The notes under the pieces were generated by a model. The model ran no database searches, had not been told where the DNA came from, and saw only the letters and a program-made list of their open reading frames with translations. Positions 55,753-63,339 of a stretch of 64,000 nt of DNA are shown here, piece after piece; the stretch's first letter is position 1; each line of letters begins with the position of its first letter. This DNA is from Saprospiraceae bacterium (lineage in GTDB: Bacteria > Bacteroidota > Bacteroidia > Chitinophagales > Saprospiraceae), in the NCBI GenBank assembly GCA_026986005.1, contig JALSPK010000160.1, positions 1 to 64,000 on the forward strand, written 5' to 3'. Made by a program: the position numbers and the translations under genes.

Positions 55753-56235
55753 TCATTTTTCAGAGTTCCAATCTTTATATGGATTTTTCATTAACATGGC
55801 GTTATAGTATTTCACATCGCCTGTCACTTCTTTTCCTAGCCATTCAGGTTTTTCAAAAATATCATCCTCAGACTCCAATTCTATTTCAGCGACAATTAAT
55901 CCATTGTTATCACCATAAAATTCATCAATTTCATATACATAACCCTTGTGTTGAACTATAAATCGAGTTTTGTCAATTACACCGGGTTCACATATTTTCA
56001 ATAAGTCCTTCGCATCATCAACACTGATTTCTTTTTCCCATTCATAACGACTCATCCCTGATTTATTTCCGATACCCTTTATGGTCAAAAACCCTTTATC
56101 CCCTTTAATCCTAACTCTAACTGCTCTTTCAGGAACAGAAGACAAATAACCTTGAACTATCTTTTGTGATTGTCTTATACATCCCTTAAAATCATCATTT
56201 TTTACTAAAAACTTTCTTTCTATTTCTTGTGCCAT
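55753..56235 (-). CDS. CYTH-domain protein (triphosphate tunnel metalloenzyme family)
   Basis: From the start at 56235 the protein has 160 residues: the hallmark EIERKFLV (ExExK) at residues 4-11, RVRIKGDKGFLTIKG, YEWEKEISVDDAKDLL and GLIVAEIELESEDD near the C-terminus. These supply the acidic and basic residues lining the beta-barrel tunnel. CYTH enzymes hydrolyse inorganic triphosphate or nucleotide triphosphates, or act as class IV adenylate cyclases. This compact CYTH-only form is usually a triphosphatase. It is 13 bases downstream of a second CYTH-like gene, so the two are likely an operon. Confidence 0.9.
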   Translation of the reverse strand: MAQEIERKFLVKNDDFKGCIRQSQKIVQGYLSSVPERAVRVRIKGDKGFLTIKGIGNKSGMSRYEWEKEISVDDAKDLLKICEPGVIDKTRFIVQHKGYVYEIDEFYGDNNGLIVAEIELESEDDIFEKPEWLGKEVTGDVKYYNAMLMKNPYKDWNSEK

Positions 56236-56248
56236 TTTGTTTATATTT

Positions 56249-56890
56249 TTAATTTGCCAAAGGTTTATCAATCATTCCAATTACCCTCTTAATTACTTGT
56301 AAATAGTTAATATTCTCAACACCTATCAAACCTATATCTGACAATGTTTTCTTAATATCCTCTAGCTCGGTTGATTCTGAATTTATACTTATCACCTTTG
56401 CTCCATTAATCAATACATTTGCAACTTCACAAATAGTATCATTAACCATGTATCCAAACCTGTGCTTATGCACTTTTACAGCCTGTAAATCCGGATGTTT
56501 TTTTATCATTTGCAGAAATTCTTTCAACGTGTATTCTTTTTTATCCAAAGTAGGCATTTCTACGTTAAATGCGGGAAATACTTCTTTTACCAAGGTTTTC
56601 TTTGATATTGGAAACTTTGCTTTCATCAAAGGATTCCATTGTTCTAATCCATCAACGGTTTGGACAAATGTTTTGATATCCATCTTACCATTTCTGATTT
56701 TAGTATTGTTTATATCATTAGTTTTCGAAACAATATATATTTCATCAGATTGCCTTTCTTTTACCTTGTCAGGTACCGGAGCAGATAGTTCTTGCATCTT
56801 TTTGGAAGCCTCCTTGAAATCTTGTCCGAAAGACCTAAATTCAAACCTTGGTTTTGATATTTCCCCGATTTTTAATTTTTCTTTTACCAT
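56249..56890 (-). CDS. CYTH-like conserved protein
   Basis: The 213-residue protein is highly charged and has a divergent CYTH-like pattern: KPRFEFRSFG (residues 13-22, an ExR version of the ExExK strand), SDEIYIVSKTNDINNTKIRN (about 48-67), KMDIKTFVQTVDGLEQWNPL, and later KVHKHRFGYMVND followed by VANVLINGAKVISINSESTE. The regular strand pattern and the conserved blocks suggest a well-preserved family with a beta-barrel core. No signal or membrane segment. It immediately precedes the classical CYTH gene, which strengthens the assignment. Function is unknown; polyphosphate or triphosphate binding is an inference. Confidence 0.6.
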   Translation of the reverse strand: MVKEKLKIGEISKPRFEFRSFGQDFKEASKKMQELSAPVPDKVKERQSDEIYIVSKTNDINNTKIRNGKMDIKTFVQTVDGLEQWNPLMKAKFPISKKTLVKEVFPAFNVEMPTLDKKEYTLKEFLQMIKKHPDLQAVKVHKHRFGYMVNDTICEVANVLINGAKVISINSESTELEDIKKTLSDIGLIGVENINYLQVIKRVIGMIDKPLAN

Positions 56891-57008: not shown

Positions 57009-57746
57009 TCAATAGCTATACACTTGTAATTTATCCAAACCATCAAGTACAATGTATATTTTTCTATTATTAGCATCAACAACGATACCTTCAGCTTTTG
57101 ATTCTTTAATCTTGAAGCTCAATATCTTTTTTCCATTCAAATCGCATTTGGTTATAGATTTGGATTTATCGCTGATTATCCAAATAACATTTTCGCTTTG
57201 CTCATAAAATATGCCGGAGTAATCAATGGCAAAATCCAATTTTGTTTGCTTAATTATTTTGCCAAAAACATCCAATTCCACTAAGAGACCGGGGTTTTGT
57301 TCATTCAATAAATAGATATGGTTATTTTTTGCATTATACGTCACTCCTTCCAGGCCTTTATTAAGACTATTTTCTTCAATTGCTATGTGTAGTCTATCTA
57401 TTTCTTTTCCATTAGAATCTAGTTTGACCAATTCCCTTCTTCTTTCTTCTACAACCAATACATTACCGTTATTTGGATCTACAGTCACTCCCTCCAAGTC
57501 TTCTCCTTCATAGCTAAGAGTTTTAATCAATGCCCCTGTTAACGATAGTTTATTTACCTTAGCAGAATTATCACTGACGGTATAAAAAGCGTTTTTATTA
57601 GCTGTAAAACACAATCCTGAAGGCTCTTTTACCTCAAGTTTAACCGCTTTTATCAATTCCAATTTGGTATCATGTGTTTTTTTGGTTTCTTTATCACATG
57701 CCCCTAAGAATAACAATGCTATTAACAAACCTAGCATTTTATGCAT
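57009..57746 (-). CDS. SdiA-regulated-type beta-propeller lipoprotein
   Basis: From the start at 57746 the protein has 245 residues: a lipobox leader (LLFLGACDKETKK) and then NHL/YncE-like propeller repeats of the SdiA-regulated family (EPSGLCFTANKNAFYTVSDN, LEGVTVDPNNGNVLVVEERR, GLEGVTYNAKNNHIYLLNEQ, ASGI-type FYEQSENVIWIISDK, AEGIVVDANNRKIYIVLDG). Members sit at the outer membrane; the substrate is unknown and the link to quorum sensing is historic. The chosen ATG follows the stop of the LTD gene by one base (TAA-G-ATG); an upstream ATG (57758) would overlap it. Confidence 0.85.
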   Translation of the reverse strand: MHKMLGLLIALLFLGACDKETKKTHDTKLELIKAVKLEVKEPSGLCFTANKNAFYTVSDNSAKVNKLSLTGALIKTLSYEGEDLEGVTVDPNNGNVLVVEERRRELVKLDSNGKEIDRLHIAIEENSLNKGLEGVTYNAKNNHIYLLNEQNPGLLVELDVFGKIIKQTKLDFAIDYSGIFYEQSENVIWIISDKSKSITKCDLNGKKILSFKIKESKAEGIVVDANNRKIYIVLDGLDKLQVYSY

Positions 57747-57747
57747 C

Positions 57748-59286
57748 TTAATTGCCATTTGAACTTCCCTTAGATTCTTCACTTAAAACTGCCCATTTTA
57801 TGCCGCCATCAGGGATTCTTCCTACCAATCCATTATGTCCTTCAGGCCAATTGTCTTTTAGCAATTCATCAATTACTTCACCTGAAGCATTTAATAATGT
57901 AATATTTTCTCCTCCACTTGAAACTTTAAATAAAGTAGTAGAGCTACCGTCACAATCCAATGTCCAAAATCCTCCGGCGGAAATAATTGTTCCAGCCGGT
58001 ACTACGTAAGCTTCAGTTGAATCTTTATCATGCAATTTATATCCTCCTAAATCAATATCAGAGTCTGTTCCATTAAATAATTCAATATAATCAGGATCCC
58101 CCTTGCCTTGAATTTCATTTATTACTAGTGCGTCCAAAGTAGCCGGAGGAGCTACAACATATGATGGCCACATCTCCAAACTATCATTATCAAAAGATTC
58201 ATTCGTTGGGTAGTAACTCTTTAATCCTGACAAATCCACTGCTCTCATATAATATTTCACAGTTGTATTATTAGATTGTCCGGGCAATTTACCTTCATAA
58301 GTATTTCCACTAATATTGTCCATTATTATTTTTTCTTTATCATTTACTGTTTGATCTCCTACAACATAATACAATCTAACTTGATCTATTCCTGTAGCAT
58401 CAAAAACATCAACCGAAATAGTCACTTCCTCATCTGCTGACGGATTTTCAGTTGAAATATCAAAGTTTGAAAAAATAGCAAATCCATTTTGTGATACTAT
58501 TTTTAAAGGTTTGTCCGGAGCACTTTCCGGAAAATAACTTTTCAATCCTGTTTCATCTGCAGCCATTATATAATACTCCAATTCTTCTCCTGCCGGTATA
58601 TTTGGCAATACAAAGGAGTATTCGCCACTACCTAAAGGTACCATGTCAACAAAAGCAAATTGACTTCCATACTTATAGTATAATTTCACATCTCTTAGCC
58701 CTGAAATATCAACAACCATTGCAGAAATCTTATAATTTTGATTGTCATTTAAACCCGTAATAGAATCTACTGTAATAGAAGGTGCAGAGTTAGTGTTGCT
58801 ATTTGCCGCACCGGGAGAAGGATTTATCAATCCCCATTCAGCACCTCCGTCTGTTGTCCTACCGTAAGCTGTTCCGGGATCCATTGCAGGCAAGTCGATT
58901 TGATCGACCAAATTGCCTTCTTTGTCAACCAATTTAATAGGTTCACCTTTTGAAGAAATTTTAAAGTTTGTGTGTATTCCTTCATCATCTACCAATCCGG
59001 CTTTATCTGCTAAAAGAATTAAATATCCTCTTGCTTCAACCGAAACACCTGAAGGGATAACAAAATCTGCCCCTCCATCTGATATTGTATATCCGGTTAT
59101 ATCAACAGCTTCTTCTGCGTTATTGTACAGTTCTACATAATCGGGACTTCCGGTCGAGACCAATTCATTCAAAAATATAGATGAATCTCCATTTCCTTTA
59201 GGAGTGGGATCTTTAAGGTCTTCATCTTTTACACAAGATGTTACTCCAACGAAAATAATAGTCAATAATATAAGTAATTTTTTCAT
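57748..59286 (-). CDS. Lipoprotein with two lamin-tail (LTD) domains
   Basis: The 512-residue protein has a lipobox leader (IFVGVTSCVKDED). The first LTD domain is at about 30-155 (SIFLNELVSTGSPDYVELYN; YLILLADKAG; LVDQIDLPAMDPGTAYGR). The centre has Ig-like units (YYKYGSQFAFVDMVPLGSGEY; VRLYYVVGDQTVND). A second LTD is at about 385-510 (DALVINEIQGKGDPDYIELF; GGFWTLDCDGSSTTLF). LTD domains in bacterial surface proteins often accompany nucleases and phosphatases. No catalytic domain is visible in this protein. It is fourth in the phosphate operon. Confidence 0.88.
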   Translation of the reverse strand: MKKLLILLTIIFVGVTSCVKDEDLKDPTPKGNGDSSIFLNELVSTGSPDYVELYNNAEEAVDITGYTISDGGADFVIPSGVSVEARGYLILLADKAGLVDDEGIHTNFKISSKGEPIKLVDKEGNLVDQIDLPAMDPGTAYGRTTDGGAEWGLINPSPGAANSNTNSAPSITVDSITGLNDNQNYKISAMVVDISGLRDVKLYYKYGSQFAFVDMVPLGSGEYSFVLPNIPAGEELEYYIMAADETGLKSYFPESAPDKPLKIVSQNGFAIFSNFDISTENPSADEEVTISVDVFDATGIDQVRLYYVVGDQTVNDKEKIIMDNISGNTYEGKLPGQSNNTTVKYYMRAVDLSGLKSYYPTNESFDNDSLEMWPSYVVAPPATLDALVINEIQGKGDPDYIELFNGTDSDIDLGGYKLHDKDSTEAYVVPAGTIISAGGFWTLDCDGSSTTLFKVSSGGENITLLNASGEVIDELLKDNWPEGHNGLVGRIPDGGIKWAVLSEESKGSSNGN

Positions 59287-59355
59287 TTTATAATTTTTCA
59301 TTTTTTAATAATATTTTTGCTTTTTCATTAATCGTTTATCAAGCAATAAAAAAAA

Positions 59356-60729
59356 CTAAAAGTCGATTTCGATTCTTGCAGAAAGAAATCCAAAATCATC
59401 GCCGGCTTTACCTGCCGGTATGTTCAGGTCGGTAACATCTTTGTATTTTACACCGGCATCATCTTGGTAAATATACAGTTTCCCTTTACCGTTAGCATAT
59501 CTATCGTGATTCAAATAGTTGTAATTTAACATCATTTTTACATTGGTATTAGCGTGATATGTTAATCCTAAAGTATAACTCTCACCTGCTCCTCCATATA
59601 TATTGGCATCTTTATCATTTGCATTTACATAACTATATCTAAATGCCAATTCCAACTCTCCCCAATTATTCTTTTTTGAAATTTGTGTAAATTCTCCTTC
59701 TGCATTATTATAGTTGTATGTCGAACCAAATATCAACCATCCTGCTTGAATATATCCTCCATCAAAATTTGCAGTATATGCATTATCTATCCCATAAATA
59801 GCATTTTTCATATATTCACTTTGAAACATAAAGTTATTATAAGCTCCTGCCAATTCTACTCCCAATAAAACTTGGTGGTCAACATCACTCATATCATCCG
59901 TATCGATGTATTTTTTTCTATTTATAGAGGTTAAAGACCGAGTACTAAAACGATAGCTGTTTATTTCAGAATCACTAGTCTTTGGTGTACGATATGAGCC
60001 TGCCATTCCTATATGGATGACTTTATTTCTTTTTTGAATAGGCATAAAAGCAATTCTGCCCGTATATGAAATACCCTCGTCCAATCCATTTTTTTTATTA
60101 TGTGCTTGAGACAATTCTACCTCTTCAAACCCACCCACATCATTGAAGTGAATACCTGCAATTGCCAACCAATTATTTCCCCATTTAGAAGCAGCTATCC
60201 CAAGATTTCTAGAAGGTGCAAATTTACTTGGCAATGATCTTTCTATAAACGTAACATATCTTGAGGTAGTGGTAGTTTCCATTGAAAAAGATTCTTTATA
60301 GTTTCCTGCCTTAATAAAGCCATTATGCAATTGGTATTTGATATAGGCATCTTTGATTTCGGTAGCAGAACCGGCAAAATCAAGGTCAATTTCCCCATAC
60401 CAATTTTTATGCAACTGAGCTTTTACAGCAAATCTCATTCTTCTAATTGTTAATCCATCACCAATTGGATTAATCTGTGTACCAAAAAATTTGGCACCAT
60501 CAAAATATACTCGATTATCAAGCCAATACTTGTATTCTTTATCATTGCTCTCAAATACTAAAATACCATTTCTAGTTTCCGACTTTAAGTCAACTCTATC
60601 AACCTTTACCCCATATTCATTGTACCTAACACTATCTTCAGAGTTTTGTGAAAAAGAAGTAATTGAAAACAGCAAAACAACGAAAACTATCAGTTGCTTG
60701 TGAGGTAATAAATTGTAATTTTGTTTCAT
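59356..60729 (-). CDS. Phosphate-selective porin (OprO/OprP-type)
   Basis: The 457-residue protein has a signal peptide (LIVFVVLLFSITSFSQ), then barrel-type alternating strands typical of the OprO/P porin family: RRMRFAVKAQLHKNWYGEID near 95-115, FIKAGNYKESFSMETTTTSR near 145-165, and a C-terminal strand ending in FGFLSARIEIDF (final Phe). OprO/OprP-type porins admit phosphate or polyphosphate; specificity is an inference. It is third in the operon, 26 bases after the phosphate permease gene, which supports phosphate as the substrate. Confidence 0.8.
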   Translation of the reverse strand: MKQNYNLLPHKQLIVFVVLLFSITSFSQNSEDSVRYNEYGVKVDRVDLKSETRNGILVFESNDKEYKYWLDNRVYFDGAKFFGTQINPIGDGLTIRRMRFAVKAQLHKNWYGEIDLDFAGSATEIKDAYIKYQLHNGFIKAGNYKESFSMETTTTSRYVTFIERSLPSKFAPSRNLGIAASKWGNNWLAIAGIHFNDVGGFEEVELSQAHNKKNGLDEGISYTGRIAFMPIQKRNKVIHIGMAGSYRTPKTSDSEINSYRFSTRSLTSINRKKYIDTDDMSDVDHQVLLGVELAGAYNNFMFQSEYMKNAIYGIDNAYTANFDGGYIQAGWLIFGSTYNYNNAEGEFTQISKKNNWGELELAFRYSYVNANDKDANIYGGAGESYTLGLTYHANTNVKMMLNYNYLNHDRYANGKGKLYIYQDDAGVKYKDVTDLNIPAGKAGDDFGFLSARIEIDF

Positions 60730-60755: not shown

Positions 60756-62648
60756 TTAAATGTTTTTTAATATTGTGTCCAATTGTTCGTTATGTCCTAA
60801 ATTCATCTTTTTACGCAACCTATATCTATTCATCTCCACGCTCTTTACTGAAATGTTTGTCAGTGCTGCAATTTCCTTTGAAGACATATTAAGCCTTAAA
60901 TATACACACAATCTTTTTTCATTTTTAGAAAGATTGGGATAAATTGAATTTAATTTATAAAAAAAATCTTTGTTGATTTCGTCAACATGCATTTGAAAAG
61001 CTTCTCTGTCGTTTTCGAGGTTCTGATTGTTAGAGATTAACAAGTATAACGCATTCAATTTTCTTAATAATGAAGAATCATTTGTTTCCAATTTAATTTC
61101 TTCGATTTTTGATTTTAATATCTCCAAAAAATTGTTTTTCTCAATTAAATTTAGAGCCATTGTGGTCAACTCACTATTTTTGAAACTCAATTTTTCCTCC
61201 ATCTGTTTAGTCTCTAGCAAATGAAACTTGGTTTCTATCTCTGCCAAAGCTTTTTGAGCTTCTAGAATTTGTCGATTTTTACTTAGAATAATTTTATTCC
61301 TTTTAAAAGCTGATTTTACCCAACTTACTATTAAAAATATTAAACCGAGTAATACTCCTACTATCAATGCAATATAAAAATATTTTGAAATATTATTGGT
61401 TTTACTTTCTTCTATTGCTTTAGGTTTAACCTCAGCTATAACATTTTTTAATTCATTTTGACGAGAGAGATTTGGGCCGACAATACTCTCTGAGGTATTA
61501 TTGTGTATCGAGTTAGTTTTTATCTGATAGCTGTCTTTAGAAGTATTTGTTTTTTGTACAGAATCTGTAATTATTGTTTGATTTGTTTTTGATTTGTCAA
61601 TATACTTGTTGGCACTAACCGGAATTAAGAAAACATTGCTTACAAAAAAAAGTGCAAAAAACGACAAAACTCCTGAAATAAATGGAGTTGCAATCCAACC
61701 GGATGCAATGCTTCCCAACATTTTGAAATTAATATTATAACCACCTTTTAATAATCCTAATCCTAAAATAGAACCAACGATAACTTGAGAACTCGAAACC
61801 GGTACCAATGGAATCGGTGGAAGCCCTATACTAACAAAAAAAGAAGATAAGCTGCTAGATGAGAAAACAAACAAGACCATCGAATTTGAAAGCACAGTAA
61901 TAATAGCAGATTTGGATGAAAGCTGCATTAAGCCGTTTCCTACTGTGTCCATTACTCTTTTAGAGTATGTAAAAATCCCTAAGGCAATTGCAAGTCCGCC
62001 TAAAAGAAACAGCTGTTGGATACCATTCAGTTTAAACAACCCAAAGTCTAGATAATTCTCTGGAGCAGCTAATACAAATACGCCCATAACATTTGCAATG
62101 TTGTTTGCTCCCAAACTAAAAGAACCAAATGCACCAACCAATAACAATGAAAATCTAATATATGCATCTTGCTTTAACAAATGTATTTTTACAACTTTTA
62201 GAAAAGCACGTTGAATATAATACAGTATTATGGCAAAAACAGCTCCTAATATTGGTCCCATCACCCATGTCGATACGATTTTTCCCAAAACCTTTACATC
62301 TGTTGGAGATCCCACAAAAAAATTCCAGCCTATAATCGCTCCGACAATTGCTTGTGAAGTGGATACGGGAATCCTGAATTTTGTCATCCAATAAACGGTA
62401 ATAGCCGCTGATAAAGCTACAGTAAATGAGCCGCCAATTGCAGATACCGAACCTAATTTACCTAAAGTATGAGTAGCTCCTGCACCTTGGATTACCGCTC
62501 CCAATATCACAAAAATAGACGCAATAATAGCTGCTTTTTTAAAACTAACCATCTTTGTTCCTACGGCAGACCCAAAAACGTTGGCAGCATCATTTGCTCC
62601 TAATGACCATCCTAGAAATAATCCACTTGATAAAAAAAAGAATATCAT
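60756..62648 (-). CDS. PiT-family phosphate permease fused to coiled coil and LuxR-type DNA-binding domain
   Basis: The 630-residue protein has the PiT sodium/proton-phosphate transporter core at residues 1-345, with the duplicated signatures GANDAAN (18-24) and GANNIAN (180-186). A polar linker follows (about 350-420), then an added membrane helix (YFYIALIVGVLLGLIFLIVS, about 423-442), a coiled coil (about 448-515) and a C-terminal LuxR/GerE-like HTH (about 570-625: LSKNEKRLCVYLRLNMSSKE, IAALTNISVKSVEMNRYRLR). This HTH type is common in Bacteroidota sensors. The fused protein could sense phosphate by transport and regulate genes. The start overlaps the DUF47 stop by one base (TAATG). Alternatively the HTH could be structural. 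Confidence 0.88.
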   Translation of the reverse strand: MIFFFLSSGLFLGWSLGANDAANVFGSAVGTKMVSFKKAAIIASIFVILGAVIQGAGATHTLGKLGSVSAIGGSFTVALSAAITVYWMTKFRIPVSTSQAIVGAIIGWNFFVGSPTDVKVLGKIVSTWVMGPILGAVFAIILYYIQRAFLKVVKIHLLKQDAYIRFSLLLVGAFGSFSLGANNIANVMGVFVLAAPENYLDFGLFKLNGIQQLFLLGGLAIALGIFTYSKRVMDTVGNGLMQLSSKSAIITVLSNSMVLFVFSSSSLSSFFVSIGLPPIPLVPVSSSQVIVGSILGLGLLKGGYNINFKMLGSIASGWIATPFISGVLSFFALFFVSNVFLIPVSANKYIDKSKTNQTIITDSVQKTNTSKDSYQIKTNSIHNNTSESIVGPNLSRQNELKNVIAEVKPKAIEESKTNNISKYFYIALIVGVLLGLIFLIVSWVKSAFKRNKIILSKNRQILEAQKALAEIETKFHLLETKQMEEKLSFKNSELTTMALNLIEKNNFLEILKSKIEEIKLETNDSSLLRKLNALYLLISNNQNLENDREAFQMHVDEINKDFFYKLNSIYPNLSKNEKRLCVYLRLNMSSKEIAALTNISVKSVEMNRYRLRKKMNLGHNEQLDTILKNI

Positions 62649-63292
62649 TAATCTTTTGTTTTTATTGATAAAGCTGATAATAATCTAGCAGCATATTCCG
62701 CTCTGTCCGAAATTTGTTCTATGTGTAAAGTGAAATATCGCAAGTGTATTTTTTGACTTAATTTTAAATGCTTACTATCCTTAAATATTTTTCTTTTTAA
62801 ATCTGCTGCCAAAACATCTGTTTCTTTTTCGTAATAAAACACGCGATGTTCGCTATCCTTAACAGCAGAGGGGTTATTGAAAAATGATCTAACTGCCGGA
62901 ATTACCGCCTCTGCAGAAGCACACGACACCTCAAGCAATTTTAAAAAATCACTATTTAACTTTTTTGGTATAGACGGCATTTCAACATCATATTGAAAAA
63001 GATTTTCCTTTGCTGTATCTATAATATCATCCAAGTTGTCAAGAAGCTTTACCACGTCTGCACTGTATTGTGGAATTAATGAGTGTTCAAAAAATTCATT
63101 TTGTATTTTGAGTACAATAGAGTCCGCTTTAGATTCCAATTTGTAAACTTTGTCAATACTTTTTGTAAACCCCTCTTCATCTTCTTCAAGATAACTTTTT
63201 ACTCCCTCTTTAAATACTAAGATTCCTTGATCCACCGTATCAAGGAACTCGTCTATATCTCTAATTGTAGATTTTGTCTTTTTAAAAAACAT
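62648..63292 (-). CDS. DUF47 (PhoU-like) phosphate transport regulator
   Basis: From the start at 63292 the protein has 214 residues: MFFKKTKSTIRDIDEFLDTV, the helical YKLESKADSIVLKIQNEFFE, ADVVKLLDNLDDIIDTAKEN (about 80-99), and DRAEYAARLLSAL at the end. DUF47 proteins have a PhoU-like fold and usually pair with PiT permeases, as here (1-base overlap). They probably modulate transport. An earlier TTG codon (63310) lies inside the promoter's -7 box, so the ATG at 63292 is preferred. First gene of the phosphate operon. Confidence 0.92.
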   Translation of the reverse strand: MFFKKTKSTIRDIDEFLDTVDQGILVFKEGVKSYLEEDEEGFTKSIDKVYKLESKADSIVLKIQNEFFEHSLIPQYSADVVKLLDNLDDIIDTAKENLFQYDVEMPSIPKKLNSDFLKLLEVSCASAEAVIPAVRSFFNNPSAVKDSEHRVFYYEKETDVLAADLKRKIFKDSKHLKLSQKIHLRYFTLHIEQISDRAEYAARLLSALSIKTKD

Positions 63293-63307
63293 ATATTCAT
63301 TTTGATA

Positions 63308-63339
63308 CAAATGTATGTTATTTATACAAACTTACCAAA
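63308..63339 (-). promoter_or_regulatory. Promoter of the phosphate operon
   Basis: On the minus strand TTTG (63339-63336) and TACATTTG (63315-63308) are separated by 20 bases, a good Bacteroidota -33/-7 pair. The leader would be very short (about 10-15 bases) if the ATG at 63292 is used. Confidence 0.7.

Follow-up and report, generated by a model that had tools for sequence, protein, structure and literature searches.

The usual account of phosphate sensing in bacteria involves the Pst transporter, PhoU and a kinase that is a protein of its own; by what route the state of a transporter is passed on to the regulator has long been asked. The nearest functional analogues of the protein reported here are CbrA and Ks-Amt5, both of which signal by phosphorylation. 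CbrA of Pseudomonas is an SLC5-STAC-histidine kinase transceptor (PMC7096432, PMC13022988), the kinase of which is not needed for histidine transport (PMC7096432). Ks-Amt5 of Candidatus Kuenenia is an Amt module joined to a histidine kinase, and has lost transport (PMC5764959).

We analysed a stretch of 64,000 nucleotides of Saprospiraceae DNA (the window). On its minus strand (62648→60756), an ORF of 630 codons (60756..62648) encodes a PiT permease fused to an extra membrane helix, a long helix and a helix-turn-helix (HTH) domain. Like CbrA, whose transporter works without the output domain, the protein combines an uptake-type transporter and a transcription-controlling output in one polypeptide. 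The transporter family is, however, a different one, and whereas the output of CbrA is a histidine kinase acting via CbrB, with STAC/PAS in between, the fusion carries the DNA-binding domain itself, without a phosphorelay. With Ks-Amt5 it shares a transporter module in the place of the sensor and a C-terminal output that is cytoplasmic (by prediction in the fusion), but Ks-Amt5 is an ammonium-type protein with a kinase output and lost transport, and has neither the extra membrane helix nor the HTH. Scans with Pfam and NCBIfam found no SLC5 core and no histidine kinase domain in the fusion protein. A literature search, which covered few subscription journals, returned no description of a PiT-HTH fusion, of another transporter-HTH transceptor or of this gene cluster, in agreement with the first-pass annotation of the sequence, which knew of no example. 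If the reading developed below is true, the protein would represent a one-component, transporter-HTH class of transceptor, adding transporter-transcription factors to the transporter-kinases known among bacterial transceptors, and would place transporter and transcription factor in one molecule, beside a PhoU-like gene.

The transporter core (residues 1-340, 61629..62648, minus strand) matched PHO4 over residues 17-329 (Pfam, E 9e-61), the profile spanning the whole core. Both signatures from which a PiT permease had been proposed are in place: GANDAAN, with its Asp kept, at residues 17-23 (62580..62600), and GANNIAN, with Asn in place of Asp, at residues 180-186 (62091..62111). AlphaFold, supplied with an alignment of 50 rows taken from window and locus proteins, gave a mean pLDDT of 86.5 for the fusion protein and a helical core mostly above 90; TmPiT (6l85) was the sole significant structural match (Foldseek, E 5e-12, TMt 0.67). 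The core fold and the signatures are thus those of PiT/PHO4 proteins (TmPiT 6l85; CysP), but the core is shorter (~340 residues versus 400), the second motif is GANN and a membrane helix and HTH follow at the C terminus. The fusion was not found in the other PiT genes of the window genome, two further PHO4 genes whose products, of 752 and 791 residues, have no HTH.

The C-terminal domain (residues 566-630, 60759..60953, minus strand) is of the LuxR/GerE type. The GerE match of the window protein (residues 572-623, E 1e-4) scored 22.4 bits, slightly below the curated cut-off of 23.5 bits; since orthologues score above it (34.5 bits at L018 and 24.8 bits at L019), we regard the HTH as real. AlphaFold places it at residues 575-614 with a pLDDT of 94-97, and the two segments by which the first-pass annotation had picked out the domain, LSKNEKRLCVYL and SVKSVEMNRYRLRKK, are both found in the protein. 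A weak Pfam match to sigma-70 region 4 falls on the same helices. The remark that this HTH type is established behind TPR or propeller sensors also held, as the same output module is present in the Reg_prop/Y_Y_Y-TM-HTH and TPR-TM-HTH regulators of Bacteroidota, with 32-37% identity to the copies in the protein's own genome, although their sensor is a propeller or TPR and that of the fusion a membrane transporter. Since the membrane helix, long helix and HTH are also the output of these sensors, the module is a one-component output anchored in the membrane.

By family-averaged hydropathy and charge the core has ten membrane helices. Its Lys/Arg-rich loops (residues 31-38, 88-93, 147-162, 229-246 and 301-312) are separated by acidic or charge-poor ones, and by the positive-inside rule this pattern predicts a core with both termini outside, a periplasmic linker (residues 341-419, 61392..61628, minus strand) and an eleventh membrane helix, TM11, that crosses from out to in and brings the HTH to the cytoplasmic side, with KSAFKRNK directly after it. 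TM11, previously put at about residues 423-442, occupies residues 420-444 (61317..61391, minus strand) in the hydropathy profile and is kept in all six fused proteins compared. A complete transporter domain and a predicted cytoplasmic output domain are thereby found in one polypeptide, as in a transceptor. Between TM11 and the HTH lie a long cytoplasmic helix and a further helical segment (residues 445-565, 60954..61316, minus strand); in the AlphaFold model residues 420-521, TM11 included, form one unbroken helix. The coiled coil that had been proposed for this region survives as a long continuous helix (~100 residues); a heptad-type coiled coil is not supported, hydrophobic periodicity at 3.5 residues being no better than in shuffles.

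The linker, in contrast to the output unit, is not of fixed length. Its ~80 residues appear disordered in the window protein (pLDDT mostly below 55 over residues 345-418, and 38-53 over most of them), and its length in the six fused proteins is 85, 86, 86, 39, 36 and 24 residues. The distance from TM11 to RYRLRKK in the HTH is, in the same order, 182, 182, 182, 186, 185 and 192 residues. Comparison of congeners likewise separates the two parts: strong purifying selection acts on the long helix and HTH (pN 0.04-0.12, pS 0.60-0.85), much as on the PiT core, but not on the linker, which evolves fast (pN 0.31-0.53).

The architecture recurs in seven genomes of two Bacteroidia families, within the same operon and with conserved gene order, which excludes misassembly or chance read-through. 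Its carriers are a small group of environmental Bacteroidota. This PiT subfamily is present in 8 of 398 Saprospiraceae genomes and is fused in six of the eight (G000, G930, G899, G885, G053 and G024); the seventh fused protein, of 613 residues, comes from the other family (G1181). In the two remaining congeners (G077, L017/L003; G167, L016/L002) the PiT stops at 386-389 residues, and the porin gene starts a few bases after it. The whole TM-helix-HTH module is lost there and the transporter kept, a natural deletion experiment. In a tree of PiT cores built without G1181, all eight Saprospiraceae rows fall into a single clade with support, the truncated pair lying beside fused congeners, so the history of the module within the family would most simply be one gain and one loss. 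A tree of the HTH module itself allows a single origin but does not prove it (support 75/30, long branches). Elsewhere in Bacteroidota, non-fused members of the subfamily have a different C-terminal domain of ~150 residues or a short tail, and no HTH was found in the non-fused members examined from other bacteria.

In the window, the fusion is the second gene of an operon on the minus strand. The first gene (62648..63310) encodes a DUF47/PhoU_div protein (PF01865, E 7e-18); it overlaps the PiT ORF by one base, at which the first gene ends and the second begins, and its true start may be an internal ATG near 63292. This partner is conserved at every locus but L079. The fusion is followed after 26 bp by a Porin_O_P outer-membrane porin (59356..60729; PF07396, E 3e-41), which is conserved next to the PiT, and then by a lamin-tail-domain (LTD) protein (57748..59301; PF00932, E 1e-33) and an SdiA-regulated/phytase-like propeller protein (57009..57782; PF06977, E 3e-25; PF13449, E 1e-11), both conserved. 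Next come U213, a conserved 213-residue protein (56249..56890; L092:638-1327) that had no match in Pfam, NCBIfam or PDB, and a conserved CYTH-domain protein (55753..56271; PF01928, E 1e-14). The U213 gene adjoins the CYTH gene in most clusters and Ppx/GppA in G212, which hints at a link to polyphosphate.

The same cluster genes, usually with a DASS symporter, surround non-fused PiTs in other Bacteroidota. Outside the fused clade, each of the ten non-fused clusters that are complete (L078-L080 and L084-L090) adjoins genes for a PhnD/ArrX-like binding protein and a histidine kinase, with an NtrC-type regulator seen where the locus is long enough. The order in these clusters is binding protein, histidine kinase and NtrC, divergent from U213, CYTH, DASS, DUF47, PiT, Porin_O_P, LTD, SdiA-like and LTD genes, an arrangement that is conserved and apparently undescribed. 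The solved structure nearest to the cluster binding protein is ArrX (E 5e-13), which binds arsenate (Kd 1 μM) and phosphate (150 μM) but no other oxyanion among those assayed, sulphate being one of them (PMC5908839). The sister clusters are flanked in this way by a set resembling the AioX/ArxX/ArrX three-component systems (XSR; PMC5908839); those, however, are separate proteins, and none was found adjoining the fused loci that have context (L071, L073, L074 and L108). Nor was a close homologue of the cluster binding protein found in the fused and truncated genomes, among which only G000, G167 and G1181 have paralogues (22-27% identity). One of them, in the window genome (contig C112, L094:4141-7892), belongs to a paralogous binding protein-kinase-NtrC set near an RND-efflux-like gene of 1238 codons, and is 25-27% like the binding protein of the clusters. 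Where a short DUF47-PiT pair occurs without the rest of the cluster (L077 and L109), neither the HTH fusion nor the three-gene regulator is present. Because the fused loci are without an adjacent binding protein-kinase-NtrC set, the HTH fusion looks like a one-component substitute for that three-gene regulator. Only a small number of lineages underlie this mutual exclusion, and phylogeny confounds it, as the fused proteins may represent few independent events.

The non-fused PiTs that end in the ~150-residue domain (residues ~350-490, PYEISxSVLxKLxxEGI...; L049-L057, L005-L007 and L009) have no Pfam match in that part. It was modelled with a pLDDT of mostly 77-90 and, by core topology, would be periplasmic.

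Could the HTH be a passive passenger, or regulate something else in answer to a signal from the membrane, redox state or proteolysis rather than to the anion? A disordered and variable linker and the natural loss of the module in congeners would both suit this explanation, and an alignment of the regions preceding the operon in five congeners revealed no recognisable operator; the short TTTGG/ATTTG promoter-like blocks that emerged are common to fused and truncated loci. We nevertheless consider it unlikely, since the module is in frame with the core and under strong purifying selection across the seven genomes, and its presence coincides with the missing adjacent regulator of the oxyanion type.

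The architecture, predicted topology, conservation, selection, operon and co-distribution were computed, whereas the substrate, signal, route and target genes of the following scheme are what we infer. The explanation towards which we lean, with belief slightly outweighing doubt, is a membrane-anchored one-component regulator in which an N-terminal PiT oxyanion permease is coupled to an HTH that regulates its own genes, and which replaces an ArrX-like binding protein-kinase-NtrC system. The PiT core would import an anion, most likely phosphate, supplied via the neighbouring porin. From the periplasmic C terminus of the core, the tether and TM11 would lead to the long helix and the LuxR-type HTH inside the cytoplasm, and HTH dimerisation or availability would depend on whether the core is transporting or occupied. 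As the linker is disordered, fast-evolving and variable, it offers no visible rigid connection between core and HTH; the signal may pass instead through packing of TM11 on the core, or through the cytoplasmic DUF47 protein, which is PhoU-like and might form a bridge from the core to the long helix. The HTH would control its own operon, having taken over from the ArrX-like system that stands beside related clusters. In its fuller form, the proposal is that an active secondary transporter acts as its own transcription factor, the PiT reading oxyanion occupancy or flux and driving the uptake operon from its place in the membrane with neither a kinase nor a response regulator, after displacing the ArrX-type regulator; we offer this version tentatively and think it somewhat doubtful. 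The transceptor idea of the first-pass annotation, that phosphate flux is coupled to transcription, thus gains from the absence of a binding protein-kinase-NtrC set next to fused loci, but its choice of the core as sensor sits less well with the disordered, fast-evolving linker, and what is sensed might be occupancy or a partner protein instead of flux. Two congeners dropped the HTH yet kept the transporter, so the coupling is dispensable, and with non-fused, fused and secondarily truncated relatives available it is directly testable.

The second signature bears on whether the core transports at all. Its Asp is replaced by Asn in all 25 subfamily members aligned, and with Ks-Amt5 as a precedent for lost transport (PMC5764959) the change might mean that the PiT core no longer transports but binds the anion and signals via the HTH, like the Amt module. 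This we find quite improbable: the same Asn occurs in members fused or not and is thereby unlinked to sensing, pN/pS of the core is very low, both truncated congeners keep the core alone, and the porin and DUF47 partners are retained.

The substrate of the regulator that we favour is probably phosphate, judging from the company of the gene: phosphate or a phosphate analogue is favoured by the PhoU_div partner, the ArrX-like sensors of sister clusters and the CYTH and Ppx-GppA neighbours. No PstS was found in the window genome. The annotation as a phosphate transporter stands as regards the PiT core, but phosphate is only the probable substrate, given the CysP-like GANN motif. Instead of two GANDVAN-type motifs, both with Asp, the protein has GANDAAN and GANNIAN, which therefore make it a member of the PiT superfamily (TC 2.A.20) without implying phosphate specificity; with the second motif lacking the Asp of phosphate transporters, sulfate or another oxyanion could be the substrate. 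In B. subtilis CysP, Gly and Asn replace the two Asp, a change speculated to shift specificity to sulfate (PMC5840216). That the same one-component mechanism serves sulfate or another divalent oxyanion instead of phosphate is nonetheless the least probable of the alternatives, for the shared GANN change, the DASS anion symporter of the clusters and a match to the CysP sulfate permease model (NCBIfam NF053884) that at 86.3 bits is far under the equivalog cut-off of 400 are opposed by those same phosphate-related partners, neighbours and sister-cluster sensors, by the retained Asp of the first motif and by clusters without a recognised sulfur-assimilation gene.

In many non-fused members (L050-L057), the position of Asp20 is taken by His or Asn (GANHAVN, GANNAVG). 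These proteins thus lack the aspartate of either signature, and their substrate or ion coupling may differ.
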